Source: Christiangramia sp. (GTDB taxonomy: Bacteria; Bacteroidota; Bacteroidia; Flavobacteriales; Flavobacteriaceae). Taken from it: a stretch of DNA of 64,000 nucleotides. Of this stretch, positions 4,368-21,756 are shown in pieces (position 1 is the first letter of the stretch; each line of letters opens with the position of its first letter). A program made the position numbers and the translations under genes. Under the pieces are notes generated by a model, which saw only the letters and a list, made by a program, of their open reading frames with translations, was not told where the DNA came from and did not search any database. The DNA lies in the NCBI RefSeq assembly GCF_029937855.1, contig NZ_JAPYPC010000009.1, positions 1 to 64,000 on the forward strand. Direction: 5' to 3'.

Positions 4368-5000
4368 ATGTGGAAGGAACTTGAAGAGGCCTACGGATTT
4401 CAATTTGAAAAAGAACTCTTAGCTGAAATATTAGAAACCGGAAGCATTAAAAAAGTTTCAGCCGGAAACAGAATTATTGAAATTGGTGAATACGTGACCG
4501 GAATGCCTTTACTGCTAGAGGGTGCCATTAAAATTTTACGAGAAGATAATGATGGTGATGAACTTCTTCTTTATTTTTTAGAACGTGGTGATACCTGTGC
4601 CATGACACTTAATTGCTGTTTAGGGCAAACCAAAAGCGAAATTCGCGCAGTAGCAGAGAACGATACTACCTTTATCATGATTCCCATTGCTAAAATGGAA
4701 GAGTGGACAGGAAAGTATAAGTCCTGGCGAAATTTCGTTTTTGAATCTTACCACAATCGGCTCTCTGAAATGTTAGATACTATAGATACTATTGCATTTT
4801 TAAAAATGGATGAGAGGTTGATGAGATATTTACAGGAAAAGGCTATGGTTAATGCTAACGATTTTATTCAGAGCACCCATCAGCAAATTGCGTACGATCT
4901 TCATACTTCCCGGGTGGTAATATCACGATTGCTGAAAAAGCTTGAAAATGAAGGTAAGATCTCCCTTCAGCGAAATCAAATAAAACTTAAGAACCTTTAA
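4368..5000 (+). CDS. Crp/Fnr-family transcription regulator with Cys cluster
   Basis: A 210-residue regulator: cyclic-nucleotide-binding-like sensor barrel (about 25-120), dimer helix (about 125-150) and a Crp-type winged helix (about 150-205) with recognition helix SRVVISRLLKKLE. The sensor domain holds Cys77, Cys83 and Cys84 (DTCAMTLNCC), positions that could sense oxidants or reactive sulfur; that is inference. It lacks the N-terminal Fe-S cysteines of classical FNR. It sits 69 bp upstream of the TauE/SafE exporter with a GTAAC-N4-GTAAC site between them. The same palindrome class recurs before other sulfur genes in the window, so it is the likely regulator of that set. Confidence 0.85.
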   Translation: MWKELEEAYGFQFEKELLAEILETGSIKKVSAGNRIIEIGEYVTGMPLLLEGAIKILREDNDGDELLLYFLERGDTCAMTLNCCLGQTKSEIRAVAENDTTFIMIPIAKMEEWTGKYKSWRNFVFESYHNRLSEMLDTIDTIAFLKMDERLMRYLQEKAMVNANDFIQSTHQQIAYDLHTSRVVISRLLKKLENEGKISLQRNQIKLKNL

Positions 5001-5007
5001 AATCTTT

Positions 5008-5051
5008 GTAACACTTGTAACTGCGGACATTGTAGCAACTCGATACTTTTG
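5008..5051 (+). promoter_or_regulatory. Predicted Crp/Fnr operator plus -7 element before tauE
   Basis: GTAACACTTGTAAC at 5008-5021 matches the palindrome GTAAC-N4-GTTAC with one mismatch. TACTTTTG at 5044-5051 fits the Bacteroidota -7 consensus TAnnTTTG. Its last base lies 43 bases after the operator start, exactly as at 13279-13322 and 20720-20763. With transcription starting about 5 bases after the -7 element, the operator centre falls near -41.5, the class II activator position. Confidence 0.6.
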
Positions 5052-5069
5052 TCCCAGGAAAATTTAGAT

Positions 5070-5870
5070 ATGGATATATTAGAAGTTCTCGGGTATTTAG
5101 GAGCATTATTAATAGGAGTTGTTTTAGGGTTAATAGGAGGTGGCGGTTCTATATTAACTGTTCCGGTCTTAGTATATCTAATGGCAATCAATCCCGTTAC
5201 AGCCACAGCCTATTCTTTATTTGTGGTGGGGGCTTCTTCGTTGGTGGGAGCTGTTAGAAATATTCCCAAAAATCTAATAGATTTTAGAACTGCTTTCGTA
5301 TTTGCTGTTCCGGCGTTTATCGCTGTTTATCTTACAAGAAAGTTTTTGGTTCCGGCAATTCCAGAAGAGATATTCACCGTTTTTGATTTCACGATCACCA
5401 GGAATATCGGGATTATGCTCTTTTTTGCAATTATTATGATAATTGCTTCGATCTCTATGATTAAGGAGAAAAATAATGGAAGGAATACTAATGAAGAAAA
5501 AGTACAATATAATTATATATTAATTATTGTCGAAGGTCTGGTAGTAGGTCTTCTTACAGGTATTGTGGGTGCAGGAGGGGGCTTTCTTATTATCCCCGCT
5601 TTGGTAATCTTTGCAAAACTGCCTATGAAAAAAGCAGTAGCGACCTCTCTTCTTATTATTGCGGTGAAATCCCTGATTGGTTTTATTGGAGATGTGGAGA
5701 ATATGAATATTGACTGGACTTTTCTTTTAATCTTCACCGGTATATCTATAGGTGGGATCTGGCTCGGAGTATATCTGAATAATTTTATAAATGGAAAGAA
5801 ACTAAAGAAAGGATTTGGCTGGTTTGTGCTGCTAATGGGAATTTATATTATTTGGAATGAGCTATTTTAA
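5070..5870 (+). CDS. TauE/SafE-family sulfite/organosulfonate exporter
   Basis: A 266-residue inner-membrane protein with about eight hydrophobic segments in two similar halves. The family signatures LIGGGGSILTVP (N half) and GIVGAGGGFLIIPAL (C half) are clear. TauE/SafE proteins are thought to export sulfite, sulfonates or related small anions. I start it at the ATG at 5070 rather than a TTG at 5049, because the predicted promoter element covers 5044-5051 and would otherwise be inside the gene. It is next to a Crp/Fnr regulator and probably under its control. A mobile repeat was inserted just after its stop. Confidence 0.85.
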   Translation: MDILEVLGYLGALLIGVVLGLIGGGGSILTVPVLVYLMAINPVTATAYSLFVVGASSLVGAVRNIPKNLIDFRTAFVFAVPAFIAVYLTRKFLVPAIPEEIFTVFDFTITRNIGIMLFFAIIMIIASISMIKEKNNGRNTNEEKVQYNYILIIVEGLVVGLLTGIVGAGGGFLIIPALVIFAKLPMKKAVATSLLIIAVKSLIGFIGDVENMNIDWTFLLIFTGISIGGIWLGVYLNNFINGKKLKKGFGWFVLLMGIYIIWNELF

Positions 5871-5881
5871 TCTAAAAAAAT

Positions 5882-6103
5882 CAGCGGTGTGCGATAAAAA
5901 TTTTTAAAGAGCGAACCTGAAATCAGTATTTTCATTAGATCAAAGCTTTTACTACGATCTCTATCCTGTTTTTACAAATAATGAATTTTGACATTCTTTG
6001 AAAACACATTTTAAACTTACTTTCTTTATCGTTAATTAAGTCCAGGTTTAACTTCTTATATCTAAAAGCGAAGCGGTCTAGTTTCTTTAACCGGACATGA
6101 GTC
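5882..6103. mobile_element. MITE-like element, copy B (diverged)
   Basis: Second copy of the element at 1429-1653. It starts CAGCGGTGTGCG and ends CCGGACATGAGTC. The right-hand 45 bp, including AAGCGGTCTAGTTTCTTT, are almost unchanged, whereas the middle has drifted and is AT-richer. It is flanked by a perfect 9-bp direct repeat, TAAAAAAAT at 5873-5881 and 6105-6113. The left copy begins three bases after the tauE stop codon. Confidence 0.7.
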
Positions 6104-6113
6104 ATAAAAAAAT

Positions 6114-6633
6114 ATAAATCCTTAATCCAAGATATTTTATCTTTATTGATTGTATTTCAGGTTTTTATGCTATTTTAGTGGTTGCCGAAAATTTTATTTC
6201 AATACTCCCCCCTGAAGATTTATGAAACTGCATTTTCTGATCCTAATTTCAGAAAGTTTCTTAAGTCGTGTTTTTAATTGAAATTTTTTATTAAAATTTA
6301 TCCGGATTTCTGAGCAATTTTTTTCAGGAGTTATGGTTTGGGAGAACAAAAACATGCAAACCCCATTTTGCATCCAAATTATAAACTTTGTCTTCAACTT
6401 AGAGCTGAGAATAGTTTTAGGTTACAGCTCTGTTTAGAATGGTTATACTGCTTAGATATCCGGATATTTTTACTTTACTTAATAATCAAACTTTCTCTTC
6501 CGGATTATTCAAAAAAGTTGAAATTAGCCTTTTTACTATGAGGTCATACTCCTATTTTTCTGTAAATTTATGAGCCAGAAAATATGGTGGTTTTAGGCTT
6601 ATATATTCTGAAAATCACTTAAAAATTCCCTTG
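6114..6633. other. Gene-free region upstream of cydA
   Basis: About 520 bp with no convincing coding sequence on either strand. The short open frames here have no recognisable domains and atypical composition. It presumably holds the cydAB promoter, but I could not identify a clear TAnnTTTG element or an FNR-like palindrome. Confidence 0.5.
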
Positions 6634-7935
6634 ATGGAGAACCTTGACTACGCCAGACTTCAGATGGCTTTTACCCTCGGCTTTCATATTATTTTTGCTT
6701 GTATTGGTATGGTAATGCCTTTTTTTATGGTGGTGGCTCATAAAAAATGGTTGAATACCAGAAATCTTGTTTATCTGGATCTCACTAAAGCATGGCTCAA
6801 GGGAGTAGCCATCTTTTTTGTGACTGGAGCGGTTTCGGGTACTGCGCTTTCTTTTGAACTTGGAATGCTTTGGCCCGAATTTATGAAACACGCCGGCCCC
6901 GTGATTGGAATGCCCTTTTCCCTGGAAGGAGCTGCCTTTTTTGTTGAAGCTATTGCATTAGGTTTTTATTTATATGGTTGGAAGAAACTTCCCGAAACTT
7001 TTCACTGGATCACCGGTATTATAATTGGTGTGTCAGGAGTTCTTTCGGGAATTTTAGTCGTATCGGCAAATGCCTGGATGAACGCTCCTACAGGTTTTGA
7101 TGTGATTAATGGGGAATTTGTAAATATAGATCCTGTAAAAGCATTCTTAAATGAGGCCTGGTTTACACAAGCCCTGCACATGACCCTCGCTGCTTTTGCT
7201 GCAACCGGCTTTGCCGTGGCAGGGATTCATGCCTTTCAAATATTAAGAAATAAAAGACCAGAACTACATAAAGCGGCATTTAAAATTGCTATTCTTTTTG
7301 GCGGAATAGCGGCTTTATTGCAACCTATTAGCGGAGATATTTCAGCAAAAGATGTGGCAGAACGTCAACCCATAAAACTAGCCGCAATGGAAGCTCATTA
7401 TGAAACAGAACGCGGAGCGCCCCTATTTATTGGGGGTATCGTAGACGAGGAAAATAAAGAAGTGACCAATAGAATTGAAATTCCAAAAGCGCTTTCCTTT
7501 CTGGCCTTTGGAGATTTTGATGCTGAAGTAAAAGGCCTGAATGATTTTCCTGAAGAAAACCTTCCGCCGGTTTCGATTGTACATTATGCTTTCCAAACCA
7601 TGGTGGGAATAGGTTCATTAATGATGCTTGCCGCAGTTGTTTATTTTATTAGCCTGAAGAAAAAGAGCTGGATGGAAAAACGAAAATATTGGTGGCTTTT
7701 TGCGCTGTTAAGTCCGTTAGGCTTTATAGCTGTTGAAGCCGGGTGGGTGGTAACCGAAGTTGGCCGACAACCCTGGATAGTGTATAATATTATGAGAACT
7801 TCTGAAGCCGTTACGCCAATGCCTGGATTAAAATATAGTTTTTTCCTTTATCTCGGGGTATATATTAGTCTCGCAATTACGGTTACCTGGCTTATGAGAA
7901 GACAAATTAAGGTGCTTAATAATCCAAATGATTGA
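6634..7935 (+). CDS. cydA: Cytochrome bd oxidase subunit I
   Basis: A 433-residue integral membrane subunit that carries hemes b558, b595 and d and oxidises quinol while reducing O2 to water. Seen: His18 in GFHIIF, the b558 His near residue 183 (TQALHMTL), the acidic pair in LEGAAFFVEAIALGFYLYGW and the GRQPW motif. At 433 residues it is shorter than E. coli CydA (522), so it has the short Q-loop form common outside Proteobacteria. I choose the ATG at 6634 over an in-frame TTG three bases earlier. It is two bases upstream of cydB, forming the high-affinity, stress-tolerant terminal oxidase. Confidence 0.95.
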   Translation: MENLDYARLQMAFTLGFHIIFACIGMVMPFFMVVAHKKWLNTRNLVYLDLTKAWLKGVAIFFVTGAVSGTALSFELGMLWPEFMKHAGPVIGMPFSLEGAAFFVEAIALGFYLYGWKKLPETFHWITGIIIGVSGVLSGILVVSANAWMNAPTGFDVINGEFVNIDPVKAFLNEAWFTQALHMTLAAFAATGFAVAGIHAFQILRNKRPELHKAAFKIAILFGGIAALLQPISGDISAKDVAERQPIKLAAMEAHYETERGAPLFIGGIVDEENKEVTNRIEIPKALSFLAFGDFDAEVKGLNDFPEENLPPVSIVHYAFQTMVGIGSLMMLAAVVYFISLKKKSWMEKRKYWWLFALLSPLGFIAVEAGWVVTEVGRQPWIVYNIMRTSEAVTPMPGLKYSFFLYLGVYISLAITVTWLMRRQIKVLNNPND

Positions 7936-7937
7936 GT

Positions 7938-8969
7938 ATGTTATATGTAGTTTTATTTTTTACTTTCTTCTCCCTGTTTTTATATGTGCTGCTTGGCGGT
8001 GCCGATTTTGGAGCCGGTATTGTGGAATTGTTTTCTTCCAGGGAAAATAAAAAACTGAATAGGGATACCATTTATAAAGTGATGGGGCCGGTATGGGAAG
8101 CAAATCATATCTGGTTGATCATTCTTATCGTGATTCTTTGGATAGCTTTTCCTGAATATTTCAACATCATTATAATTTACCTGCATATTCCCTTAACGCT
8201 CGTGCTCCTGGGAATTACCATGCGTGGCGTGGCTTTTATTTTCAGGCATTATGATGCGATTGTAGATAAATCACAGGACTGGTATAACAGGATGTTCAGA
8301 ATTTCAAGTTTAATAACGCCTGTATTTCTGGGAATGTCATTTGGAGCATTAATAAGCGGAGAGATTATGATCACTGATGATTTTTCTGAAACTACTTTTT
8401 CAGAGATTTTCATGCATCCATGGTTGAATGTTTTCACCTTTTTAACCGGTTTATTTTATGCGTCTCTATGTGCCTTTCTGGCTTCCACCTTATTAATAGG
8501 GGAGACCACCGGCGATGTTAGAAGAATGTATAGTAGAAAATCGGCGGTATTTACCGTTGTTTTGGTGATTATTGGCGCACTGGTACTTCTATATGGATAT
8601 CTTACAGATATGGTTTTTGTAAAAGATTTTCTTCGGAATAGTTTATCTCTCATCGCCATTGCCTTATCGGGAATATTACTTATTCCACTTTGGCGAGCGA
8701 TTAGAAAACAACATAGCATCTTTACCAGGATCTTTGCCGGAATACAAATTTTACTGGTAATATTTGCCGCTGTGAATACTCATTTCCCAAATATTATCAT
8801 TACTCAAACTTCTGAAGTGAATATGCTGGAAGGTGTAGCACCCGATGAAGTTATAAAGGTTTTGGCAATTTCGCTGATCATAGGAGGAGGATTTATTCTA
8901 CCTGGCTTATTCCACTTAATGAAATCTTTTAATATGATTAATCCGTCTAATTCTACTGAAAAACAATAA
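7938..8969 (+). CDS. cydB: Cytochrome bd oxidase subunit II
   Basis: A 343-residue subunit with about nine transmembrane segments that pairs with CydA. The N-terminal GGADFGAGIVELF and the MGPVWEANHIWLI segment are family signatures. It starts at the ATG at 7938, two bases after the cydA stop, so translation is probably coupled. No cydX-like peptide or cydCD transporter follows. Length is slightly below E. coli CydB (379), as usual for this phylum. Confidence 0.95.
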   Translation: MLYVVLFFTFFSLFLYVLLGGADFGAGIVELFSSRENKKLNRDTIYKVMGPVWEANHIWLIILIVILWIAFPEYFNIIIIYLHIPLTLVLLGITMRGVAFIFRHYDAIVDKSQDWYNRMFRISSLITPVFLGMSFGALISGEIMITDDFSETTFSEIFMHPWLNVFTFLTGLFYASLCAFLASTLLIGETTGDVRRMYSRKSAVFTVVLVIIGALVLLYGYLTDMVFVKDFLRNSLSLIAIALSGILLIPLWRAIRKQHSIFTRIFAGIQILLVIFAAVNTHFPNIIITQTSEVNMLEGVAPDEVIKVLAISLIIGGGFILPGLFHLMKSFNMINPSNSTEKQ

Positions 8970-9111
8970 TGTTTAAGAATTCTCAGAAGATTTAATAAGA
9001 GGAAAATCAATTATCTTTAATAAAAAATACATAAAAACCGGTCTTAAACTTTGGTATACCTGTATTTTTGGGTAATTTCAAAATTCAAAACTAACTTAAA
9101 TTTAGAAAATC

Positions 9112-9426
9112 ATGAGATCATTTATTAAAAAAGGATTTTTTCTTAGTGCTATACTTCTTTTTATTGCCTGTGGAGAAAGCACCGATGTGGTAGAATCTGG
9201 AACCTATCAGGGAACCATCAAAGAAGTAGAAGCTGATAAAACTGAAATCTATGTTTCTACCGACGATAATAAAACCCTGGAACTTTATTTTACTGAAAAT
9301 ACCAGCCTTACCAGAAATGGTTCTGAAGTAGAATTTTCAGAACTGAAAGAAGGCCAGAAAGTAGAAGTGGAAGTTGAGAAAAAAGGGAAAAGACTGGATC
9401 CACTTTCGGTTAAAATAATGGAATAA
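9112..9426 (+). CDS. Small lipoprotein with beta-rich domain
   Basis: A 104-residue lipoprotein. The signal peptide ends in the lipobox FIAC with Cys20, so it is probably anchored on the periplasmic side of a membrane. The rest (about 30-104) looks like a small beta-barrel (TYQGTIKEVEADKTEIYV, then KEGQKVEVEVE), similar in layout to the OB-like DUF3221/DUF5666-type folds. I do not recognise a specific family. It ends two bases before the start of the DUF2231 gene, so the two are likely cotranscribed. Confidence 0.65.
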   Translation: MRSFIKKGFFLSAILLFIACGESTDVVESGTYQGTIKEVEADKTEIYVSTDDNKTLELYFTENTSLTRNGSEVEFSELKEGQKVEVEVEKKGKRLDPLSVKIME

Positions 9427-9428
9427 AT

Positions 9429-9914
9429 ATGGTTGAATTACCAGAATTTTGGCGGACAGAGGTGTTTCATCCTCTGTCCGTTCATTTTCCAATCGTTTTG
9501 TTGCTCATGGCAACGCTTTTTAAATTGATTACTCTTGGGTCTTCAAAAATTACCTGGGATCACGGAGGAAGGGTTTTATTATTACTAGGGGTTATAGGGA
9601 TTTGGATCTCCATTTATACCGGAAATTTGGCAGATGGTATCGTTTCCCGCCAATTGTGTGACCCCACTATTCTCAAAGATCATGAGAATTTAGCTTATAC
9701 CACTGCCTGGATATTTACCATTGCTTTATTATTTGAGCTTCTAAGCAGGTATGTGGATCTTATAAAAACTAAAAGTACTTCTATAATTCTGGTCTTGCTT
9801 ATGATGGCAGGTTCAGCTACCTTAGCTTATGTTGGCCATCTCGGTGCTGAACTTGTTTACCAACAGGCAGCAGGCGTAAATGTTCCGTCCGGTGATTGTG
9901 CGGAATTTAATTAA
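9429..9914 (+). CDS. DUF2231 membrane protein
   Basis: A 161-residue inner-membrane protein with four hydrophobic segments. The N-terminal HPLSVHFPIVLLLMATLFK is the DUF2231 signature, with two conserved His that may ligate heme or metal. The family is often encoded near respiratory or heme proteins; here cydAB lies 460 bp upstream. It is tightly packed with the preceding lipoprotein gene and the following methyltransferase gene (6-bp gap). Molecular function is unknown. Confidence 0.75.
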   Translation: MVELPEFWRTEVFHPLSVHFPIVLLLMATLFKLITLGSSKITWDHGGRVLLLLGVIGIWISIYTGNLADGIVSRQLCDPTILKDHENLAYTTAWIFTIALLFELLSRYVDLIKTKSTSIILVLLMMAGSATLAYVGHLGAELVYQQAAGVNVPSGDCAEFN

Positions 9915-9920
9915 AGTTTC

Positions 9921-12022: not shown

Positions 12023-12712
12023 ATGACCGAAAGTGGAAAGATGATCAATGGTTTTAAACACATTCCATATAAACCTAAAAGTTTTTCAGGAGAGGAAATG
12101 CTGGAAAAGACCAAAGAGTTTTATAATTCTTTAAATGATAGACGATCCGTTAGGCATTTTTCAGATAAACCGGTGCCTAAAGCAGTTATTGAAAATATTA
12201 TAAAATCTGCCGGAACAGCCCCTTCAGGAGCACATAAGCAACCCTGGAAATTTTGTGCAATATCTAATGCTGAATTAAAATCTAAAATAAGGGAAGCAGC
12301 AGAAAAAGAAGAGAAAGAAAATTATAACAATAGAATGAGCGAACGCTGGTTAAAAGACCTGGCACCTCTGGGAACAGATACCAATAAGGAATTTCTGGAG
12401 ATCGCCCCCTGGTTAATTATGGTTTTTAAAGAGGTATTTGAATTGAATGCGAAAGGGGAAAAACATAATAATTATTACGTAAATGAATCAGTGGGAATTG
12501 CCTGCGGAATGTTGATTTCTGCTATTCATAATGCCGGATTAGTAACTTTAACCCATACCCCAAGCCCAATGAACTTCCTGGCAACATTACTAAAAAGACC
12601 TAAAAATGAAAGAGCTTATCTGTTGCTTCCGGTGGGCTATGCTGCCGAAGACGCTTTAGTGCCAGATATTAGCAGAAAAGAACTATCACAAATTAGTGAC
12701 TTTTATGTATAA
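12023..12712 (+). CDS. Nitroreductase-family flavoprotein
   Basis: A 229-residue FMN-dependent oxidoreductase. The FMN-binding start NDRRSVRHFSDKPVP and APSGAHKQPW are clear, and the middle holds the segment NESVGIACGMLISAIHNAGL. The extended N terminus (about 30 residues) and overall pattern resemble the iodotyrosine-deiodinase/BluB-like subgroup, so it may reduce halogenated or quinone-like compounds rather than nitroaromatics; this is inference. A strong hairpin terminator follows immediately. Confidence 0.83.
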   Translation: MTESGKMINGFKHIPYKPKSFSGEEMLEKTKEFYNSLNDRRSVRHFSDKPVPKAVIENIIKSAGTAPSGAHKQPWKFCAISNAELKSKIREAAEKEEKENYNNRMSERWLKDLAPLGTDTNKEFLEIAPWLIMVFKEVFELNAKGEKHNNYYVNESVGIACGMLISAIHNAGLVTLTHTPSPMNFLATLLKRPKNERAYLLLPVGYAAEDALVPDISRKELSQISDFYV

Positions 12713-12743
12713 AACGCCGATCCCTGTAGGGAAGATCGGCGTT
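12713..12743 (+). terminator. Rho-independent-like hairpin after the nitroreductase gene
   Basis: Perfect 10-bp stem, AACGCCGATC (12713-12722) with GATCGGCGTT (12734-12743), beginning right at the stop codon. The tract after it is AT-rich rather than a pure U-run. Confidence 0.75.
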
Positions 12744-12827
12744 AATAATTATGAAAAAACAGTGAATTGGGGGCAAAAAAGTTGTTTTCACATATTTGCA
12801 AGATATTATTTTCATAAAATAATTTTA

Positions 12828-12841
12828 GTAACATTTGTTAC
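12828..12841 (+). promoter_or_regulatory. Predicted Crp/Fnr operator (GTAAC-N4-GTTAC)
   Basis: GTAACATTTGTTAC has two perfect 5-bp arms with a 4-bp spacer. The nearest -7-like sequence is TAGTTTAA at 12854-12861, which is one helical turn closer than at the other sites. The site may therefore act differently here, for example as a repressor site. The gene start is 21 bp downstream. Confidence 0.5.
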
Positions 12842-12862: not shown

Positions 12863-13276
12863 ATGCCAAAACTCATTATCAGGAGAAATTCGGAATGGGC
12901 CAATAAAATGAGATCTTTCGATCTTTTTTTAAATGGGATAAAATTTGCCGAAATTAAAGATAAACAGGTGTTATCTTTTGAAATTCCCGAAGGTAGATAT
13001 CAATTAATAGCAAAAATAGATTGGTGCGGGAGTAAACCTTTGAAATTAGAAATAAAGGAAGGTGAGATTAAAAGGATTGAGATAAATGGTTTTATTCTTT
13101 CTACATATTTTTTACCGGTAGCTTTAGTAGCCGCATTGCTTTATTTCGGAATCTATTTCAGATACAATAACAATAGTATTTTTCTTGCTACGCTGCTAAT
13201 GATTTTTCTTGGATATCTATTTTATTTCCTCACGTTTGGACGTAACCAGTACTTGAGGCTGAATGAAATTTCATAA
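12863..13276 (+). CDS. Membrane protein of unknown function
   Basis: A 137-residue protein. Residues 1-75 are a soluble beta-rich part (about eight strands by hydrophobic alternation), and 78-125 form two closely spaced membrane segments (STYFLPVALVAALLYFGIYF and IFLATLLMIFLGYLFYFLTF). I do not recognise a family. It lies between two GTAAC-N4-GTTAC operators and just upstream of the hydroxylase gene, so it could belong to the same stress or sulfur response. A later ATG at 12908 is possible, but the first ATG gives a more complete domain. Confidence 0.6.
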   Translation: MPKLIIRRNSEWANKMRSFDLFLNGIKFAEIKDKQVLSFEIPEGRYQLIAKIDWCGSKPLKLEIKEGEIKRIEINGFILSTYFLPVALVAALLYFGIYFRYNNNSIFLATLLMIFLGYLFYFLTFGRNQYLRLNEIS

Positions 13277-13278
13277 CT

Positions 13279-13322
13279 GTAACAAAAGTTACTTCTATAA
13301 CGCTTCTATATTTATATTTTTG
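13279..13322 (+). promoter_or_regulatory. Predicted Crp/Fnr operator plus -7 element before hydroxylase operon
   Basis: GTAACAAAAGTTAC at 13279-13292 has perfect arms. TATTTTTG at 13315-13322 fits TAnnTTTG, again ending 43 bases after the operator start. There is no TTG at the -33 position, as expected if an activator replaces that contact. The predicted transcript start (about 13327) is 14 bases before the TTG start chosen for the next gene. Confidence 0.65.
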
Positions 13323-13340
13323 TTTCAGAATTTAAAGATC

Positions 13341-14237
13341 TTGGAAAAGTATATCAACATTATTCAGGAATCCTTTATCGGGTATTTTAATTATCTGGTA
13401 AGTGAGATAACCAATCCAACCTGGACCAGTTATTTCTACTGGCTTATTGGTCTGTCTCTCCTGGTATGGATTCTGGAGATCGTTATTCCATGGAGAAAAG
13501 ATCAAAAGGTTTTCAGAAAAGGATTCTGGCTGGATAGTTTTTATATAATCTTTAATTTTTTCCTTTTTTCACTCATAGGTTACAATGCCATAAGCAATGT
13601 GGGCGTGGAGTTATTCAATGATTTTCTTGGCATTTTTGGGATTGAGAATATTGTTGCCATACAAATAGAAACCCTGCCCGCCTGGTTTCAGTTATTGATC
13701 ATGTTTGTAATTGCTGATTTCGTGCAATGGAATGTTCATAGGCAACTTCATAGAAGACCCTTACTTTGGGAATTTCATAAAATTCATCATAGTGTGAAGG
13801 AAATGGGTTTTGCAGCGCAGTTCAGATTTCACTTTATGGAAACCATTATTTACAAGACCGTGCAGTATATTCCATTGGCGATGATTGGCTTTGGTATCCA
13901 GGAGTTTTTTCTGGTTCATATGTTTGCAGTGTTTGTAGGCCATTTAAATCATGCGAATCTTGGCTGGAGTTATGGGCCTTTTGGATATATTTTCAACAAC
14001 CCAAAGATGCATATCTGGCATCATTCAAAAGAATTGCCGGTTGATAGACCCTACGGAATGAATTATGGATTGAGTCTTAGTATCTGGGATTATCTCTTCG
14101 GAACAGCATATATTCCGAAGAATGGTGAAAAAATAGAATTAGGCTTCAGCGGCGATAGTGATTTCCCTGAAGATTTCAAAAATCAAACTTTATATCCTTT
14201 TCGAAAGAAAGAAAAAGTAAAACCAAACCACATTTAA
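13341..14237 (+). CDS. Sterol desaturase / fatty acid hydroxylase family protein
   Basis: A 298-residue (from TTG 13341) integral membrane di-iron enzyme. Membrane segments lie in the first 130 residues. The eight-His pattern is visible: HRQLHRR, HKIHHS, HLNHANL and HIWHHS. The family inserts oxygen into lipids or related hydrophobic substrates. I start it at the TTG at 13341, because the operator and -7 element at 13279-13322 would lie inside the gene if the earlier ATG at 13263 were used; that ATG would add 26 polar and aromatic residues. It is followed after 12 bp by the persulfide-dioxygenase-like gene, so the pair forms an operon. Confidence 0.8.
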   Translation: MEKYINIIQESFIGYFNYLVSEITNPTWTSYFYWLIGLSLLVWILEIVIPWRKDQKVFRKGFWLDSFYIIFNFFLFSLIGYNAISNVGVELFNDFLGIFGIENIVAIQIETLPAWFQLLIMFVIADFVQWNVHRQLHRRPLLWEFHKIHHSVKEMGFAAQFRFHFMETIIYKTVQYIPLAMIGFGIQEFFLVHMFAVFVGHLNHANLGWSYGPFGYIFNNPKMHIWHHSKELPVDRPYGMNYGLSLSIWDYLFGTAYIPKNGEKIELGFSGDSDFPEDFKNQTLYPFRKKEKVKPNHI

Positions 14238-14249
14238 AAATCGAATAAA

Positions 14250-15587
14250 ATGACCATAAAACAATTCAAAGATAGTCCACTGGCACATTTTTCTTATGCG
14301 ATAGTGAGCAAGGGAAAAATGGCTTTAATAGACCCGTCGCGTAATCCTATGGATTATTATTCATATGCTGAAGAGCAAAACGCAAAAATAATGGCGGTTT
14401 TTGAGACACATCCACATGCAGATTTTGTAAGCAGTCATTTACAAATTCACAAAGAAACAGGTGCAACAATTTATGTAAGCGAAAAAGTAGGTGCCGATTA
14501 TCCACATACTACTTTTGATGAGGGTGATTCCCTGAGCCTTGGAGATATAGAATTTAAAGCAATTAATACACCTGGACATTCTCCAGACAGTATTACGATT
14601 GTAGCAAAACAGAATGATGAAACAGCTTTGTTCACGGGAGATACGCTTTTTATAGGAAATGTGGGGAGGCCAGATCTTCGTGAGAAAGCGGGAAACATGA
14701 AGGCAAAAAGGATAGATCTTGCTAAACAAATGTTTAATACCATAAAAAATAAATTTACAGGTTTACCTGATGATGCTTTGGTCTATCCAGCACATGGCGC
14801 CGGTTCCCTCTGCGGAAAAAATATGAGCGATGCTTCTTCCAGCACTTTGGGAAATGAGCGACAGGGAAATTGGGCGTTTAAGGAGCAGACTGAAGATGAG
14901 TTTGTCGAAGAGATCTTAAAAGATCAGCCATTTATTCCGCATTATTTTGGCTTTAATGTGGATATTAATAAATCTGGTGCCGAGAATGTTCAAAGAACAA
15001 AATGGGCAAATAAACTTCGTTTAAATGTAGAGGAGGTTGAAAATGATGCGGTCATTGTAGATACTAGGGATGAGGAAATATTCAAAAAAGGCCATCTCCC
15101 TAAAAGTATCAATATCATGGCCCGCTCTGAAAAAGATAAATATGAAACCTGGCTTGGCGCTATCATTCAGCCCGAGGAAGAATTTTACCTTGTGATCGAT
15201 TCCGTTGATAATTTGGAAGAAATACTGGAAAGAACAGCTAAGATAGGCTACGAGAAACAAATTAAGGGATTAATTACGCTGGACTCAAAGCCTGCGAAAA
15301 AGTCTGATGATTTTGATGTAGAAGATTTCAAAAGGAATAAAGAGAATTATACTATTGTGGATATTAGAAATAATAGTGAGGTTGCAGAAGGGAAAATATT
15401 TGAAGATGCCATCGCAGTGCCGTTGAATGAATTAAGAGAAAAATCTGATGAAATCCCAACAGACAAACCGGTAGTAGTGCACTGCGCCGGAGGATATAGA
15501 TCTGCGGCCGGGAGTAGTATTCTTGATATGAAACTAAAGAATTCCAAAGTTTATGATCTTAGTGAGGCTATAAAGAATTTTAATTAA
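14250..15587 (+). CDS. MBL-fold persulfide dioxygenase-like protein with two rhodanese domains
   Basis: A 445-residue protein. Residues 1-225 are an ETHE1-type metallo-beta-lactamase domain: ETHPHADFVSSH, NTPGHSPDS, TGDTLFIGNVGRPDLR and YPAHGAGSLCGKNM. Residues about 255-350 are a first rhodanese domain (VIVDTRDEEIFKKGHLP) whose catalytic Cys loop is lost (VIDSVDNL). Residues 355-445 are a second one with an intact loop, HCAGGYRSAAG. The ETHE1 family oxidises glutathione persulfide to sulfite, and rhodanese domains move sulfane sulfur. The adjacent TauE-, YeeE- and Crp-type genes in this window point to reactive-sulfur handling. A terminator follows. Confidence 0.9.
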   Translation: MTIKQFKDSPLAHFSYAIVSKGKMALIDPSRNPMDYYSYAEEQNAKIMAVFETHPHADFVSSHLQIHKETGATIYVSEKVGADYPHTTFDEGDSLSLGDIEFKAINTPGHSPDSITIVAKQNDETALFTGDTLFIGNVGRPDLREKAGNMKAKRIDLAKQMFNTIKNKFTGLPDDALVYPAHGAGSLCGKNMSDASSSTLGNERQGNWAFKEQTEDEFVEEILKDQPFIPHYFGFNVDINKSGAENVQRTKWANKLRLNVEEVENDAVIVDTRDEEIFKKGHLPKSINIMARSEKDKYETWLGAIIQPEEEFYLVIDSVDNLEEILERTAKIGYEKQIKGLITLDSKPAKKSDDFDVEDFKRNKENYTIVDIRNNSEVAEGKIFEDAIAVPLNELREKSDEIPTDKPVVVHCAGGYRSAAGSSILDMKLKNSKVYDLSEAIKNFN

Positions 15588-15612
15588 GCTAGTCGGCATA
15601 GAAGTTATTTTT

Positions 15613-15643: not shown

Positions 15644-15656
15644 GATTTTGAGCGTT

Positions 15657-15845
15657 GTCATCGCGAGAGAAACGAAACGATCTTCAGTGTACGTCATTGC
15701 GAGCAAAGCGAAGCAATCTCAATTATTGGATTTCGTCATAAAGTTGAGACTGCTTCAGTCGTACCTCCTTCGCAGTGACAATCCACAGAGTAATTCAGCT
15801 TGTTGAGTTTTCAATAGTCATCGCGAGAGAAACGAAGCGATCTCA
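15657..15845. repeat. REP-like palindromic cluster (GTCATTGCGAG family)
   Basis: Three or more units of GTCATCGCGAGAGAAACGAA and GTCATTGCGAGCAAAGCG, each ending GCAATCTC or GCGATCTC, plus an inverted unit (GAGACTGCTTCAGTCGTACC, then CTTCGCAGTGAC). Paired units would form long hairpins. A related cluster lies at 19554-19795, so the acyl-CoA carboxylase operon is bracketed by them. The remaining stretch to 16017 holds no gene; it probably includes the operon promoter, with a TATATTTA near 15971. Confidence 0.75.
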
Positions 15846-16017
15846 GTCTTTATCCTCAAATTTTAGTTATTCCAAATTCAGTCCGGGATTCATAACTCGT
15901 TTTTAACTTAAATACAATGAAATTATCCATATTTTGAGATTTCTTCAACACTTCAAACATCTTAATTTTTCTATATTTACGCTCAATGGTCAAAAATAAT
16001 AATACATAAAGCTTTTT

Positions 16018-16503
16018 ATGGATAAGAATTACAAGGTTAAGGTGAACGACACTCTGGAATTTGAATTTTCAAAGGAAGAGGTCAAAGCACTGGACACACA
16101 AAAAACTTCAGACAAACATTATCATCTTTTAAAAGATAACCGCTCTTACTCGGCTGAGGTCCTTAAGTCTAATTTTTTAAACAGGACTTATGATATAAAG
16201 ATCAATTCCAATATTTATTCAGTCAAGATCAATAATGATCTGGATCAGTTAATAGAAGATATGGGCCTTTCTTTGGGAACTTCCCAACAGGTCAATGATA
16301 TTAAAGCTCCTATGCCAGGCCTAATTCTGGAAGTGAATGTAAAGGAGGGAGACGAAGTAAAAGAGGGAGATTATCTTCTGGTTTTGGAAGCGATGAAAAT
16401 GGAAAACACCTTAACTGCACCAAGAGATGGGGTGGTAAAATCTGTTACTGTTTCCAAAAGCGATACGGTGGAAAAGAATCAGTTGTTGATAGAAATGGAA
16501 TAA
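16018..16503 (+). CDS. Biotin carboxyl carrier subunit of acyl-CoA carboxylase
   Basis: A 161-residue carrier protein. Residues about 95-160 are a biotinyl domain with the biotin attachment Lys127 in EAMKMEN and the preceding AP-MPG turn. The N-terminal 90 residues are a less conserved linking domain. The biotin arm carries carboxyl groups from the biotin carboxylase encoded next to the carboxyltransferase encoded third in the operon. It resembles the small carriers of three-subunit propionyl/acetyl-CoA carboxylases, not the AccB of fatty-acid synthesis, which usually stands with accC alone. Confidence 0.88.
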   Translation: MDKNYKVKVNDTLEFEFSKEEVKALDTQKTSDKHYHLLKDNRSYSAEVLKSNFLNRTYDIKINSNIYSVKINNDLDQLIEDMGLSLGTSQQVNDIKAPMPGLILEVNVKEGDEVKEGDYLLVLEAMKMENTLTAPRDGVVKSVTVSKSDTVEKNQLLIEME

Positions 16504-16546
16504 TTCGAAGTCAGAATTTAGAAGTACGAAATTAGCAGAAATTAAC

Positions 16547-17989
16547 ATGAAAAAAATATTAGTAGCCAACAGGGGAGAGATCGCTTTAAGAGTGATGAAA
16601 ACCATCAAACGTATGGGAATTGATACGGTGGCGGTATATTCTATAGCCGACAGGAATGCACCCCATGTAAAGTTTGCAGATGAAGCAGTTTGTATTGGAG
16701 AAGCACCATCCAGCGAATCTTACCTGAAAGGCGATAAAATTATAGAAGTAGCGAAAAAATTAAATGTAGACGGGATTCATCCTGGATACGGATTTCTAAG
16801 TGAAAATGCTTCTTTTGCAGAATCTGTAGAAAAAAATGGCATTACCTGGATTGGACCTGGTTCTAAGGCGATAAAAGTGATGGGAAGTAAACTTGCTGCT
16901 AAAGATGCGGTAAAAGCGTACGATATCCCCATGGTTCCAGGAATTGATGAAGCAATCACCGATACTGAAAAAGCTAAGAAAATTGCCAGAGAAATAGGCT
17001 TCCCTATTTTAATTAAAGCTTCTGCCGGTGGTGGAGGTAAAGGAATGCGTGTGGTGGAAAAAGAGAAAGAGCTGGAAGACCAGATGAAGCGTGCTATTAG
17101 TGAAGCTGAATCTGCTTTTGGTGACGGATCTGTTTTTATTGAAAAATATGTTTCCTCACCACGACATATTGAAATTCAGGTATTGGCTGATACACACGGT
17201 AATTACGTTCACCTGTTTGAAAGGGAATGCAGTATTCAGCGTAGACATCAAAAGGTAGTTGAAGAGGCTCCATCTATGGTATTAGATGAAGCATTAAGAA
17301 AAGAAATGGGTGAGGCTGCTGTTAAAGTTGCCAAAGCCTGTGACTATGTTGGTGCCGGAACGGTGGAATTTCTATTTGACGAAAATCGGAATTTCTATTT
17401 CCTGGAAATGAATACAAGACTACAGGTAGAACATCCGGTTACAGAATATATCACCGGAGTGGATCTTGTAGAACAACAAATATTGGTAGCGAGAGGGGAA
17501 AAGCTTCAGTTTTCTCAGGATGATTTGAAGATCAAAGGTCACGCCATGGAACTTCGGGTATATGCTGAAGATCCATTAGAAGATTTTATGCCTAGCACGG
17601 GAACTCTGGAGAAATATGAAGTGCCGTTAGGTGAAGGAATAAGACTGGATAACGGATTTGAAGAAGGTATGGAAGTACCTATTTATTACGATCCTATGCT
17701 TGCCAAGCTTGTGACTTACGGAAAAACGAGGGAAGAAGCAATCCAGGTTATGATCAAGGCCATTGATAAATATATTGTGGAAGGAGTAAGTACTACGCTT
17801 CCTTTCGGGAAATTTGTCTTTCAGCATGGCGCTTTCAGAAGCGGAAATTTTGATACACATTTCGTCAAAAAATATTATTCTCCGGAAGCATTAAAAGAAG
17901 AAACCGAAGAAGAAGCAAAACTGGCTGCTCTTATGGCATTGAAACAATATATGATAGACAAGGAGCAACTTAGATTACCACACAACTAA
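16547..17989 (+). CDS. accC: Biotin carboxylase subunit of acyl-CoA carboxylase
   Basis: A 480-residue ATP-grasp enzyme that carboxylates biotin with bicarbonate and ATP. Visible: N-terminal [14 protein letters not shown], the glycine loop [12 protein letters not shown], the [18 protein letters not shown] segment and the catalytic [14 protein letters not shown]. The length is slightly above free-standing AccC (about 450), with a Glu/Ala-rich helical tail (about 445-480). It lies 43 bp after the carrier gene and 16 bp before the carboxyltransferase gene. Together they make a biotin-dependent acyl-CoA carboxylase. Confidence 0.93.
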
Positions 17990-18005
17990 AATTGAGAATT
18001 TAGAG

Positions 18006-19547
18006 ATGAGTCAGAACCTCGATAAGTTAAAAGAAAAGATCGCTGAAGCCCATAAAGGTGGAGGTGAAAAACGAATAGCTAAACAGCACGAAAAGAAAAA
18101 ATTAACTGCTCGTGAAAGAGTAGAATATTTACTGGATGAAAATTCATTTGAAGAAATAGGAATTTTAGTAACACACCGTACCACAGATTTTGGGATGGAG
18201 AAGCAAAAATTCTATGGTGACGGAGTGATTACCGGCTATGGAACTATTCATGGTCGCCTGGTCTATGTTTTTGCCCAGGATTTCACCGTTTTTGGAGGGT
18301 CGCTTTCAGAAACTCATGCTGAAAAGATCTGTAAAGTAATGGATATGGCCGTAAAGGTTGGTGCGCCAATGATTGGTCTAAACGACTCTGGTGGCGCACG
18401 TATCCAGGAAGGTGTAAAGTCGCTTGGAGGATATGCAGATATCTTCCATAGAAATGTAAAAGCTTCGGGGGTAATTCCACAAATTTCGGCAATTATGGGG
18501 CCTTGTGCCGGTGGTGCCGTGTATTCTCCCGCAATGACAGATTTTACCTTGATGGTGGAGGATACTTCTTATATGTTCGTTACGGGACCAAACGTGGTGA
18601 AAACAGTTACTAATGAAAATGTAACTTCAGAAGAACTCGGTGGAGCGAGCACACACTCTACTAAATCTGGGGTGACTCATTTTACAGCGGCAAATGATAT
18701 TATCTGTCTTGAGAATATCAAGCAGTTAATAAGTTATATGCCTCAGAACAATCAAAAAGCTCCGGAAAAACTGGAATATGAGCTTGGCGATGAGCATCGT
18801 GAAGTACTGGAGAATATCGTTCCCGATAGTTCCAACAAGCCTTACGATATGCACGAGGTGATCAAAGGGATTATAGATGATGATTCTTTTTTTGAAGTTC
18901 ATAAGAACTATGCAGATAACATCATCGTAGGTTTTTCCAGAATTGGAGGAAGAAGCGTTGGGGTAATCGCTAACCAGCCGATGAGCCTTGCCGGAGTGCT
19001 GGATGTAGATTCCTCTAAAAAAGCCGCAAGATTTACCAGATTCTGTGATTGCTTTAATATTCCGCTTTTAGTACTGGTAGATGTTCCGGGATTCCTTCCA
19101 GGGACAGATCAGGAATGGAACGGGATCATTTTACATGGTGCTAAGCTGCTTTACGCACTTAGTGAAGCAACAGTACCAAAAGTGACTGTAATTACCAGAA
19201 AAGCTTACGGTGGTGCTTATGATGTGATGAATTCTAAGCATATTGGTGCCGACTTTAATTTTGCCTGGCCAACGGCAGAGATTGCTGTTATGGGAGCGAA
19301 GGGAGCTTCTGAAATTATTTTTAGGAAAGAAATTGCTCAATCTGAAGATCCGGAAAAGAAATTAGCCGAGAAAGAAGCTGAGTATGCTGAAAAATTTGCA
19401 ACTCCATTTGAAGCTGCGCAACGTGGTTTTATTGATGAAGTGATCATGCCAAAAGATACCCGAAGAAAATTAATTAGAGCTTTTAGCGCACTGGAAAACA
19501 AACACGTTCTGCGACCTAATAGAAAACACGGGAATATTCCGTTGTAG
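18006..19547 (+). CDS. Acyl-CoA carboxyltransferase beta subunit (propionyl-CoA carboxylase type)
   Basis: A 513-residue carboxyltransferase with two crotonase-fold halves (about 30-260 and 280-510). Seen are [16 protein letters not shown], the oxyanion-hole Gly motifs [12 protein letters not shown] and [12 protein letters not shown], and the second-half [11 protein letters not shown] and [12 protein letters not shown]. This fits PccB-type enzymes that transfer CO2 from biotin to propionyl-CoA or other short acyl-CoAs. Exact substrate preference depends on residues I cannot assign with confidence. It ends the operon, and a REP-like repeat cluster starts seven bases after its stop. Confidence 0.92.
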
Positions 19548-19553
19548 TATGAT

Positions 19554-19795
19554 GGGACTGCTTCAGTCGTTCCTTCTTCGCAGTAAATTTATTAAGTCAT
19601 CGCGAATGAAATGAAGCGATCTCAACTGAGGTCGTAAATTAGCGGAGACGTCGGTCGCAAGCTCTCTCGCAGTGACGTGGTTCTACTCGTGCCTTAATTC
19701 CGGTCATTGCGAGCCCAAAAGGCGAAGCAATCTCATGATAATTGCAATCAATTTCATGAGACGGCTTCGATCGTTACACTCTCTCGCAGTGACAT
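19554..19795. repeat. REP-like palindromic cluster (GTCATTGCGAG family), second array
   Basis: Alternating direct and inverted units: GGGACTGCTTCAGTCGTTCC, GTCATCGCGAATGAAATGAA, GGAGACGTCGGTCGCAAGC, CGGTCATTGCGAGC, GGCGAAGCAATCTCATG, then CTCTCGCAGTGACA. It fills nearly the whole gap between the carboxyltransferase gene and the dehydrogenase gene. The units are imperfect, which points to age. Confidence 0.75.
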
Positions 19796-19813
19796 ATCAA
19801 ATTTATTAATACT

Positions 19814-20716
19814 ATGAAATTCAACAAAATAGTCTGTGTAGATAACACTAAGCTGAATGACGAAGCCATTTCTGAATTACGGAAGCTGAGCGTAGATGAA
19901 GTTGAGGTACATACAGATTATCCTGAATCTTGTGACGAGATAATCCAAAGGATTGGAGATGCAGAAGGAGTGATCGTTTCGTGGCATACTGAGCTTAGCG
20001 AAGAAATTATCGAGGCCTGTTCAAGCCTGAAATATATCGGGATGGCCTGTAGTTTATATGATGATGAATCTGCCAATGTAGCTGTGAAATTTGCCAGAGA
20101 AAAAGGAATTACGGTAAAAGGAATTAGAGATTATGGAGATCCTGGAGTAGCAGAATTTATTATTTCTGAACTCATTCAATTACTTAACGGCTTCAAAGGG
20201 AAGCAATGGAAGAAAATGCGACGTGAACTAACAGATTTGAAGATCGGGATTGTGGGTCTGGGAGTTACCGGACAATTACTTGCCGACTGTCTTATACCTT
20301 TTGGGACCGATCTTTATTATTTCAGCAGAACAAGAAAACCTGAATATGAGGATAAGGGTGTAACCTATCTCGAGCTTGAGGAATTGATGAGCAAATGCGA
20401 GGTTATATCGTTTCATCTTCCAAAAAATACAGAACTGATAGGGGAGAAGCTTTTTAATAGAACAGGAAACGGAAAAATCCTGGTAAACACTTCTTTGGGT
20501 TTACCTTTTTCTAAAAAAGCTTTTCAGAAATGGATGCAAAACGGAGATAATTTTGCCATTTTCGATGGAGACGGAAAGAAGGAGCTTTCTTCAGAAACAT
20601 TGGAAATTGAGAACCTTATCGCTCAGAAAACCAGTGCAGGCTGGTCAACGAAAACCCTGGAAAGGCTTTCTAAAAAAGTTCTTGAGAATATTCAGGATTT
20701 TGTCACTTCTGCATAG
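19814..20716 (+). CDS. D-isomer-specific 2-hydroxyacid dehydrogenase family protein
   Basis: A 300-residue NAD(P)-dependent oxidoreductase. The split substrate domain (about 1-95 and 280-300) surrounds a Rossmann domain beginning IGIVGLGVTGQLLADCL. The family's catalytic Arg/Glu/His triad is only partly recognisable: the region after ISFHLPKNTELIGE lacks a clear catalytic His near residue 270, where AGWSTKTLER is found. It may therefore use a different substrate or be a divergent member. It is followed by the predicted operator of the YeeE gene and was probably acquired or retained independently of it. Confidence 0.75.
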   Translation: MKFNKIVCVDNTKLNDEAISELRKLSVDEVEVHTDYPESCDEIIQRIGDAEGVIVSWHTELSEEIIEACSSLKYIGMACSLYDDESANVAVKFAREKGITVKGIRDYGDPGVAEFIISELIQLLNGFKGKQWKKMRRELTDLKIGIVGLGVTGQLLADCLIPFGTDLYYFSRTRKPEYEDKGVTYLELEELMSKCEVISFHLPKNTELIGEKLFNRTGNGKILVNTSLGLPFSKKAFQKWMQNGDNFAIFDGDGKKELSSETLEIENLIAQKTSAGWSTKTLERLSKKVLENIQDFVTSA

Positions 20717-20719
20717 AAT

Positions 20720-20763
20720 GTAACTTTTGTTAGTGTTAGACGACTCTTCTTATCTTTACTTTG
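20720..20763 (+). promoter_or_regulatory. Predicted Crp/Fnr operator plus -7-like element before yeeE
   Basis: GTAACTTTTGTTAG at 20720-20733 matches GTAAC-N4-GTTAC with one mismatch. TACTTTG at 20757-20763 is a -7-like element one base short of TAnnTTTG; its final G is again 43 bases after the operator start. The predicted transcript start lies about 13 bases before the ATG at 20781. Confidence 0.55.
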
Positions 20764-20780
20764 CAGCTTAATCAGAAAAT

Positions 20781-21336
20781 ATGATTTAATTTTGCAGCCG
20801 TTGCCCTGGTATGTTGCAGGACCATTAATTGCTTTAATATGTTTCTGCTCATTTTCCTGGGGAAGCAATTTGGAATGTCCTCCAACTTAAGAACCATTTG
20901 TACCATGTGCGGAGCTGATGAAAAAGCTAATTTTTTTGATTTTAACTGGCGCGCACAAAAATGGAATTTAACGGTCATCGTAGGTGCAGCTATTGGTGGC
21001 TTTATCGCCATGAATTTTCTAACTGAAGATCCTGCCGTGGCTATTAATCCGGAGACCGTATCTATATTACAAGGACTTGGATTTCAAAGCGCTGGGGAAG
21101 CTTATCTTCCAGATGAATTATTCTGTCTGGAAGCATTAACAGATTGGAAGGCTTTACCTATCCTCATTATTGGTGGATTCCTACTTGGCTTTGGAGCTAG
21201 ATGGGCAGGAGGTTGTACGTAGGGTCATGCAATTTCAGGCTTAAGTAATTTACAAATACCGTCGTTAATCGCAGTAATTGGATTTTTTATTGGTGGTTTG
21301 GTAATGATCCATTTAATCTTTCCATTAATATTTTAA
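20781..21336 (+). pseudogene. Broken YeeE/YedE-family (thiosulfate/sulfur) transporter gene
   Basis: This would encode a membrane protein of about 184 residues of the YeeE/YedE family, which imports thiosulfate or related sulfur species. The reading frame is interrupted three times. After ATG 20781 the next codons are ATT TAA, while the expected N terminus (DLILQPLPWYVAGPLIALI) continues in another frame from 20783, as if one base were lost. A second one-base loss near 20838 moves the frame to 20839 onward (MFLLIFLGKQFGM). The third is TAG at 21220-21222 in place of Ser in the conserved AGGCTSGH motif, after which GHAISGLSNLQ continues in frame to a TAA at 21334. The longest intact part is 20839-21222. 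Confidence 0.75.
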
Positions 21337-21339
21337 AAA

Positions 21340-21756
21340 ATGAGAGTAATAGGATATTTAGTTATAGGTATATTTTTCGGGATCATAATGTTTAAATCTG
21401 AAGCAGCTTCCTGGTTTAGAATTTACGAGATGTTTCAATTCCAGGCTTTTCATATGTACGGAATTATAGGTTCAGCATTGGTGATTGGAGTTCTGGGTAT
21501 TCAGCTCATTAAAAAGAATAAAACAAAAGACATCCACGGTGAAGAGATTAAATTTGAGCCCAAAAATAAAAGCTTCAGCAGGTATATGTATGGCGGAATC
21601 ATTTTTGGACTGGGCTGGGCGCTCGCGGGTGCATGCCCGGGCCCAATATACACTTTAATTGGTGCCGGTTATGTTTCTGTGATTATTCTTTTTCTGGCAG
21701 CTTTACTGAGGACTTTTATTTATGGAGTATTGAGAGAAATTACCTCACTAATATGA
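21340..21756 (+). CDS. DUF6691 / YeeE-YedE partner membrane protein
   Basis: A 138-residue inner-membrane protein with four hydrophobic segments. The conserved LAGACPGPIYTLIGAG loop corresponds to the Cys-containing substrate path of YeeE/YedE transporters. In Bacteroidota and Proteobacteria this family is normally encoded directly after a YeeE/YedE gene, and the two halves are thought to work together. Here it starts four bases after the broken partner's final stop and is itself intact, so it may be an orphan half. A palindromic repeat follows its stop. Confidence 0.8.
   Translation: MRVIGYLVIGIFFGIIMFKSEAASWFRIYEMFQFQAFHMYGIIGSALVIGVLGIQLIKKNKTKDIHGEEIKFEPKNKSFSRYMYGGIIFGLGWALAGACPGPIYTLIGAGYVSVIILFLAALLRTFIYGVLREITSLI

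Follow-up and report, generated by a model that had tools for sequence, protein, structure and literature searches.

A probable Crp/Fnr-family regulator and fixed promoter geometry of a predicted reactive-sulfur regulon in Christiangramia

The first 64,000 nucleotides (nt) of one contig of Christiangramia sp. (C13:1-64000 of a genome of 3.9 Mb in 80 contigs; hereafter the window) carry a gene for a Crp/Fnr-family protein at 4368 together with genes predicted to handle sulfur. We propose, with a probability of about 0.85, that this protein is a dimeric class II activator of a reactive-sulfur regulon that includes a small RNA (sRNA) facing an operator at 12828. A dimer would bind (T)GTAAC-N4-GTTAC centred at −41.5 and recruit RNA polymerase to promoters with a TAnnTTTG box, and the activated genes would move, oxidise or transfer reduced and sulfane sulfur. 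The predicted regulon comprises TauE/SafE, persulfide-dioxygenase-like proteins, rhodaneses, YeeE/YedE, SoxB-/SoxA-like proteins, DsrE, DoxX, DUF302, TlpA/DsbD, SulP and SQR-like oxidoreductases. Reactive sulfur species would provide the signal by acting on the cysteine C77, together with C83 and in many cases C84, at the place of the CRP phosphate-binding cassette, and the regulator would activate rather than repress. At 12828 the operator would drive a minus-strand sRNA in place of a protein gene. Judged from sequence, the regulon and its geometry appear well supported, the assignment of the regulator strongly so, and activation seems likely. The marine Flavobacteriia, abundant as degraders, also process sulfide and thiosulfate, and the full-text literature searched, mostly without subscription papers, yielded no described regulator for this.

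Operator, promoter box and predicted targets

A preliminary description of the window had reported GTAAC-N4-GTTAC palindromes at 5008, 12828, 13279 and 20720, and all four are in place, with one, zero, zero and one mismatch, respectively. It had also reported a −7 element ending 43 bases past the operator start at 5008, 13279 and 20720, which is true of all three: the boxes are TACTTTTG, TATTTTTG and TTACTTTG (one mismatch). Operator, 22 bases and TAnnTTTG together form a composite in which the box lies at offset +36 from the operator start and occupies positions 37-44. At up to one mismatch the window contains six palindromes; 100 dinucleotide shuffles gave 0.82 ± 0.80, and six was not reached in any. 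The two further palindromes, at 16435 (inside the 16018-16503 gene) and 62435, are absent from the composite matches at up to two mismatches and are treated as background.

In Flavobacterium psychrophilum, the TAnnTTTG box was mapped to −12 to −5 (PMC9723704, in the part accessible to us). If these box positions are carried over, +1 is predicted 48 bases past the start of the operator, whose centre then lies at −41.5. The preliminary description had claimed such a class II position, and the fixed spacing supports it, with +1 taken from the F. psychrophilum boxes; a fixed class II activator geometry across predicted targets is thus supported. Counted from +1 at offset 48, the leaders of tauE (ATG 5070) and the hydroxylase gene (TTG 13341) are 14 nt long, within the 13-14 bases described earlier. 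That description fails at the 20720 locus, where ATG 20781 is followed immediately by a stop. The features of the window are as follows (aa, amino acids; ORF, open reading frame).

4368-5000, plus strand: Crp/Fnr-family regulator of 210 aa, predicted activator (Pfam cNMP_binding and HTH_Crp_2), with C77, C83 and C84 in the sensor domain and recognition helix TSRVVISR (conservation, operator covariation)
5008-5021, plus strand: tauE operator, one mismatch here, perfect in 20 of 21 orthologous promoters
5044-5051, plus strand: −7 box TACTTTTG at offset +36; predicted +1 at 5056 (start-site offset transferred from the accessible part of PMC9723704)
5070-5870, plus strand: TauE/SafE-family exporter gene, ATG 5070 (Pfam TauE)
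12709-12793, minus strand: candidate sRNA of about 85 nt, present at 19 of 22 loci
12713-12743, minus strand: terminator-like hairpin with CCCUAC in its loop, then a U-rich stretch (stem covariation, fold z −4.17)
12798-12805, minus strand: −7 box TATCTTGC of the candidate sRNA, offset +36
12828-12841, minus strand: perfect operator facing the candidate sRNA
12863-13276, plus strand: 137-aa ORF, no Pfam or NCBIfam match
13279-13292, plus strand: operator of the hydroxylase/dioxygenase operon, perfect palindrome
13315-13322, plus strand: −7 box TATTTTTG at offset +36; predicted +1 at 13327
13341-14237, plus strand: fatty-acid-hydroxylase-superfamily membrane protein, predicted start TTG 13341 (Pfam FA_hydroxylase)
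14250-15587, plus strand: persulfide-dioxygenase-like protein with metallo-beta-lactamase and two rhodanese domains (Pfam); no NCBIfam model matches at its cut-off
20720-20733, plus strand: yeeE-locus operator, one mismatch here, perfect in the 17 orthologous promoters having it
20756-20763, plus strand: −7 box TTACTTTG at offset +36
20781-21338, plus strand: broken YeeE/YedE gene, thiosulfate-transporter-like, with intact copies on contigs C15 and C43
21340-21756, plus strand: second YeeE-type half, DUF6691/Sulf_transp

The palindrome by itself was rejected as evidence. It has 13 perfect places in the genome, but at up to one mismatch it is not enriched over the control, the same pattern reversed (110 versus 162 places). 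The composite behaves differently: five matches are exact, 13 have at most one mismatch, where the control has none, and 19 have at most two, and at such low mismatch the composite is informative. Three perfect palindromes (C25:82155, C28:12268 and C78:145739) fall within or across unrelated ORFs and are absent from the composite matches at up to two mismatches.

All 13 composites head sulfur genes or operons containing them. In the window these are tauE and the hydroxylase/dioxygenase operon. Elsewhere they are DUF302, the yeeE copies on C15 and C43, a dioxygenase-like frame where C28 ends, SoxB-like and SoxA/TsdA-like cytochrome genes (C35, C43), and small-protein operons running into DoxX, DsrE, TlpA and DsbD. 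The Sox-like genes form divergent pairs; the two members share an operator that has a +36 box in either direction, and these single 14-bp operators, each serving two divergent promoters, are at 2300-2313 of C35 (L053, G000) and 6224-6237 of C43 (L054, G000). These target names rest on Pfam, and NCBIfam scores SoxB at 276.4 bits (cut-off 550), with SoxA and the thiosulfate transporter TsuA also below cut-off. Of the six composites with two mismatches, three precede tauE, yeeE and DUF302 and one faces the candidate sRNA. At the remaining two no sulfur gene was seen: C24:3460 gave no match to our reference proteins, and C28:29057 has no visible gene on its strand.

The preliminary description assigned the gene behind the 20720 operator to YeeE/YedE. 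The family stands, but this copy is broken: an intact 185-aa copy shows homology to it in two separate frames, and the main ORF has an in-frame stop after residue 127. The break may be an assembly error; operator and box at this locus are both off consensus as well. Because orthologous promoters carry perfect operators, the 5008 and 20720 operators are slightly decayed versions of them.

Spacing in orthologous promoters, on which the earlier claim had been staked, is conserved. Across 22 loci around orthologous regions, all 21 tauE promoters out of 21 have the exact spacing (in 19, operator and box are both perfect), as do 21 of 22 for the hydroxylase and 17 of 19 for yeeE. Among 59 relatives, 42 genomes contain the composite at up to one mismatch, with 236 matches in total versus 8 for the reversed control. 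When named Flavobacteriia loci were found by the regulator alone, 78 of 80 carried the composite, and these 80 loci have 154 boxes at +36, compared with 0-12 at every other offset between 14 and 79. In a 128-locus set, 235 of 258 perfect palindromes have a box exactly at +36 on at least one side, and shifting the spacing by 1-6 bases either way leaves 1-24. This set includes 126 loci placed by the regulator alone, one placed by the dioxygenase gene (L130) and one with its frame shifted to include a known site (L127), and at least five genomes occur in it twice (L197/L127, L198/L131, L199/L126, L201/L132, L202/L121). Loci L139-L142, L156 and L170-L176 were chosen by pattern rather than by regulator, and the main counts use other sets. 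The extended consensus is T-GTAAC-N4-GTTAC-TG.

In a phylum survey of 296 genomes, using the composite with the leading T at up to one mismatch, it was found in 29 of 29 other family genomes, one of six in the rest of the order and 19 of 37 in the rest of the class, where several composites sit in sulfur clusters. Elsewhere in the phylum it occurs in 16 of 223 genomes (reversed control, 6 of 223). At least one sulfur gene kind is present at 140 of 170 loci, and at least two kinds at 102. Pfam-checked targets outside the starting set include SulP, OsmC, Asp/Glu racemase, DUF983, cytochrome c and a YgaP-like membrane protein, as well as pyridine-nucleotide-disulfide oxidoreductases, called SQR-like by homology alone. 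Taken together, composite sites, gene content and conservation support the shared-operator sulfur regulon put forward in the preliminary description.

The regulator and its putative signal

The neighbouring Crp/Fnr protein at 4368, named earlier as the likely binder, very likely binds these operators, as covariation between operator and recognition helix, the strongest link, and the presence of operators next to regulator genes suggest. Its cNMP-binding-type barrel and Crp-type helix-turn-helix are both Pfam matches above cut-off, its AlphaFold2 (AF2) model (predicted local distance difference test, pLDDT, 85.6) matches Crp/Fnr structures, and orthologs are present in 23 of 23 genus genomes searched. 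Perfect operators adjoin its second copy (C43) as well as a broken third (C15), and in several genera operators also precede the regulator gene itself (L209, L214, L220, L221, L223, L224, L265). The third copy (L051, G000:C15, 2002-2633) is 62% identical and has several stops, with perfect operators flanking its operon on both sides.

Position 181 of CRP is one of three DNA-contacting residues (PMC1274295, accessible in part). The recognition-helix residue equivalent to CRP Glu181, residue 183, is Val in 138 and Glu in 32 of 170 regulators from 172 loci. At Val183 loci, base 3 of the operator half-site is A in 508 and G in 15, with T or C in 19 more half-sites; at Glu183 loci it is G in 20 of 28 and A in 8 (P = 4.2e-21, both halves of each site counted). 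The clearest Glu183 case is a Pontibacter plasmid (L291), where GTGAC-type operators with a box at +36 precede two rhodanese-like genes, trxB, tauE and a metallo-beta-lactamase (MBL) gene. Many genomes of genus g33 carry a half-and-half operator, TGTAAC-N4-GTCAC, with its box at +36; in G277 this operator (L281 1320) lies before a dioxygenase-like gene and yeeE.

Homologs with 30-32% identity occur on proteobacterial plasmids: the Thioclava and Thiothrix copies adjoin DUF2892, and that of Paracoccus pAMI8 adjoins YeeE, DUF6691, an MBL protein, SulP, DsrE and OsmC. In an alignment of six sequences, including five plasmid homologs (three proteobacterial), C77 and C83 are invariant.

The C-X5-CC cluster described earlier is present in the window protein, where C77, C83 and C84 are the sole cysteines and the N-terminal cluster cysteines of FNR are absent. 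As a unit, it is not fully conserved: C77 is present in 170 of 170 regulators, C83 in 162 and C84 in 132. In the alignment, these cysteines occupy the region of the CRP phosphate-binding cassette. Against the CRP model the regulator scores 53.7 bits (cut-off 266), and the cassette region, which holds the cysteines, is poorly predicted. Sulfane-sulfur sensing by C77, C83 and C84 is plausible. Because C77 and C83 are kept, yet regulators lacking C83 still adjoin sulfur genes, sulfane sulfur would be our first choice of signal, with a probability near one half. We know of no sulfane-sulfur sensor with the Crp/Fnr fold, and full-text literature, mostly without subscription papers, yielded no paper joining a Crp/Fnr regulator to sulfane-sulfur control.

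A candidate small RNA at the 12828 operator

The preliminary description placed both perfect operators before the hydroxylase operon. This holds for 13279, whereas 12828 probably belongs to a minus-strand transcript. The 12828 operator has no −7 box on the plus strand and lies 35 bases upstream of the ATG at 12863, and so cannot drive the 12863 ORF from a class II position. Its minus-strand side does have a box, exactly at +36; 55-101 nt lacking any meaningful ORF come next, and then a hairpin whose loop, CCCTAC, is invariant, with a U-run. Operator, box and hairpin occur together at 19 of the 22 loci having both flanking genes, and the other three (L120, L122, L135) have neither an operator at that place nor the hairpin. 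Entry into the alignment required CCTAC behind a perfect operator, which is true for every perfect operator there. Over the 19 loci the box is TAnnTTGY in 14, TTTG in four and other in one, and no ORF exceeds 11 codons.

Stem pairing was assessed in the 13 of 19 sequences with a gap-free stem alignment, as the automatic alignment of all 19 breaks several pairs in 4-5 rows. In these, 97.9% of cells are paired and 9 of 11 pairs show two-sided changes; on four of the five measures none of 500 shuffles attains the observed value, and on the fifth 62 of 500 do. The window RNA has a fold z of −4.17. Its own predicted promoter, covarying structure, terminator and lack of an ORF fit a regulatory sRNA, for which it is a candidate. 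The 12828 operator would drive this candidate sulfur-regulated minus-strand sRNA rather than the hydroxylase operon, and the 137-aa ORF at 12863 is possibly repressed rather than activated through it. The main sRNA box, TAnnTTGY, equals the SM5 motif, assigned to an alternative sigma factor in the accessible part of PMC9723704, and the sRNA may therefore integrate two signals.

Rfam has no match to the candidate at the gathering score, only sub-threshold ones. A covariance model returned 13 matches above 42 bits, which are the 13 sequences used to build it, and no other strong copy of the hairpin; the next match, at 37.9 bits, is outside the genus (G033:C7:112426-112471). In the target search, GTAGGG near start codons was conserved only at the sRNA locus itself, and the longest complementarity to neighbouring 5′ regions scored 5.2-7.3, compared with 5.0-6.2 in mononucleotide shuffles. 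Complementarity as a whole is only slightly above shuffles; it is highest for AccC and the biotin carrier, which were not accepted as targets. At a separate locus (L140 15966, G021:C15) no ORF comes after the composite; instead, about 110 nt lead to a GC-rich hairpin with a T-run, which may mark a second small RNA.

Hairpin terminators can work from both strands, and the minus-strand RNA could be merely the terminator of the nitroreductase gene, with the 12828 operator acting on the 12863 ORF. We consider this unlikely without being negligible: the operator, the minus-strand box and the invariant loop co-occur at those 19 loci, the three loci without the operator also lack the hairpin, and it is on the minus strand that a U-run comes after the hairpin.

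Rival readings and known systems

Several observations weigh against a cysteine-sensing sulfur activator with this grammar. With up to three mismatches allowed, the reversed control outnumbers the composite (88 versus 51), two loci with the regulator have no composite within reach (L212, L275), and 30 of 170 loci contain none of the sulfur gene kinds looked for. The covariation P value (4.2e-21) ignores phylogeny as well as counting both half-sites. At 21 of 32 Glu183 loci there is no such composite, and the grammar is therefore incomplete outside the Val183 group. Persicobacter pPP3 has a 45% homolog without such sulfur neighbours, and three of the eight regulators without C83 (L153, L159, L161) still adjoin sulfur genes. 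The cysteine segment is also the least confident part of the predicted structure (pLDDT 71 for residues 71-80 and 59 for residues 81-90).

The sensed signal could also be oxygen, the redox state, a metal or a small organic molecule rather than sulfane sulfur, given that strict conservation is limited to C77, that C83 and C84 vary and that the sensor pocket region is poorly predicted. Sulfur handling dominates the gene content across genera, and C77 and C83 are kept in the aligned plasmid homologs; we place a signal other than sulfane sulfur somewhat below even odds. A repressor covering the −33 region and released by its signal is quite improbable. Promoters of this kind have a −33 element, whose expected location the operator overlaps, and the well-studied sulfane-sulfur sensors SqrR, BigR and CstR are repressors. 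However, repressors tolerate many positions, and the centre is fixed at −41.5 at 235 of 258 sites, as class II activation, not repression, requires.

It is very unlikely that these are operators of an HcpR2-type nitrosative-stress regulon into which sulfur genes happen to fall. HcpR2 of Bacteroides, Clostridium and Thermotogales is of the same Crp/Fnr superfamily, and its published motif is exactly GTAACnnnnGTTAC (PMC1274295, accessible part), identical to the operator consensus here. In two genomes of another family the same composite precedes hcp (L286 4990, G293; Pfam Prismane 587.5 bits) and a DUF2492 gene (L285 307, G285), both likely HcpR2 targets, and the grammar is therefore common to at least two Bacteroidota regulons. 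The HcpR/nitric-oxide reading was rejected, although the operator is identical, since hcp (PF03063), the core HcpR2 target, is absent in 36 of 36 family genomes searched and the regulon content is sulfur. HcpR2 has Pro at CRP position 181 (PMC1274295, same part), where the window regulator has Val, and no HcpR chain is among the 37 PDB sequences matched by the regulator. HcpR is reported to bind heme (PMC12750200, accessible in part); the window regulator has sensor-domain cysteines.

The class II sulfur activator may be one member of a Bacteroidia-wide Crp/Fnr class with distant kin in Proteobacteria. In this class the cyclic-nucleotide pocket would have become a cysteine-based reactive-sulfur sensor that activates sulfur oxidation from a rigid class II grammar, and DNA specificity would have switched naturally between GTAAC and GTGAC through one helix residue with spacing kept; in Christiangramia it would also drive a sulfur-responsive sRNA, probably from an SM5-type (TAnnTTGY) promoter. 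We hold this wider interpretation tentatively, its odds falling a little short of balanced. Regulated genes can be predicted straight from sequence with this grammar, which fits on one line (operator, 22 bases, TAnnTTTG) and has already pointed to genes beyond the starting set (SQR-like, SulP, OsmC, SoxB-like, DUF302 and the sRNA). The Val/Glu switch at 183 offers a natural test case for the evolution of Crp/Fnr specificity, and the cysteines a testable sensor hypothesis for this fold.

The site class had been likened to that of NtcA-type proteins, with the spacing GTA-N8-TAC. This spacing and the Crp fold are common to NtcA and the regulator here (PDB 2xgx, E 5.1e-07), but NtcA-type identity was rejected, as the NtcA model (TIGR03697) scores 35.7 bits, far under its cut-off of 244.95. 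SqrR and BigR (ArsR family), CstR (CsoR family), OxyR, MarR and PerR use cysteine-based control of persulfide dioxygenase, rhodanese and TauE genes; they have folds other than Crp and are mostly repressors. E. coli CRP class II promoters have the same operator centre at −41.5, here combined with the Bacteroidota TAnnTTTG box instead of a sigma-70 −10 box. The operator class (HcpR2) and the Crp/Fnr class II kind of regulon are already known; the candidate sRNA was unexpected and would be new. A 2026 preprint describes an HcpR-SnoA regulatory RNA locus in Bacteroides thetaiotaomicron (PMC13370916, accessible in part), likewise tying a Bacteroidota Crp/Fnr regulator to a small RNA locus. According to that part of the preprint, SnoA overlaps and complements the hcp promoter and is induced without HcpR, whereas the candidate sRNA described here has its own operator and class II box.

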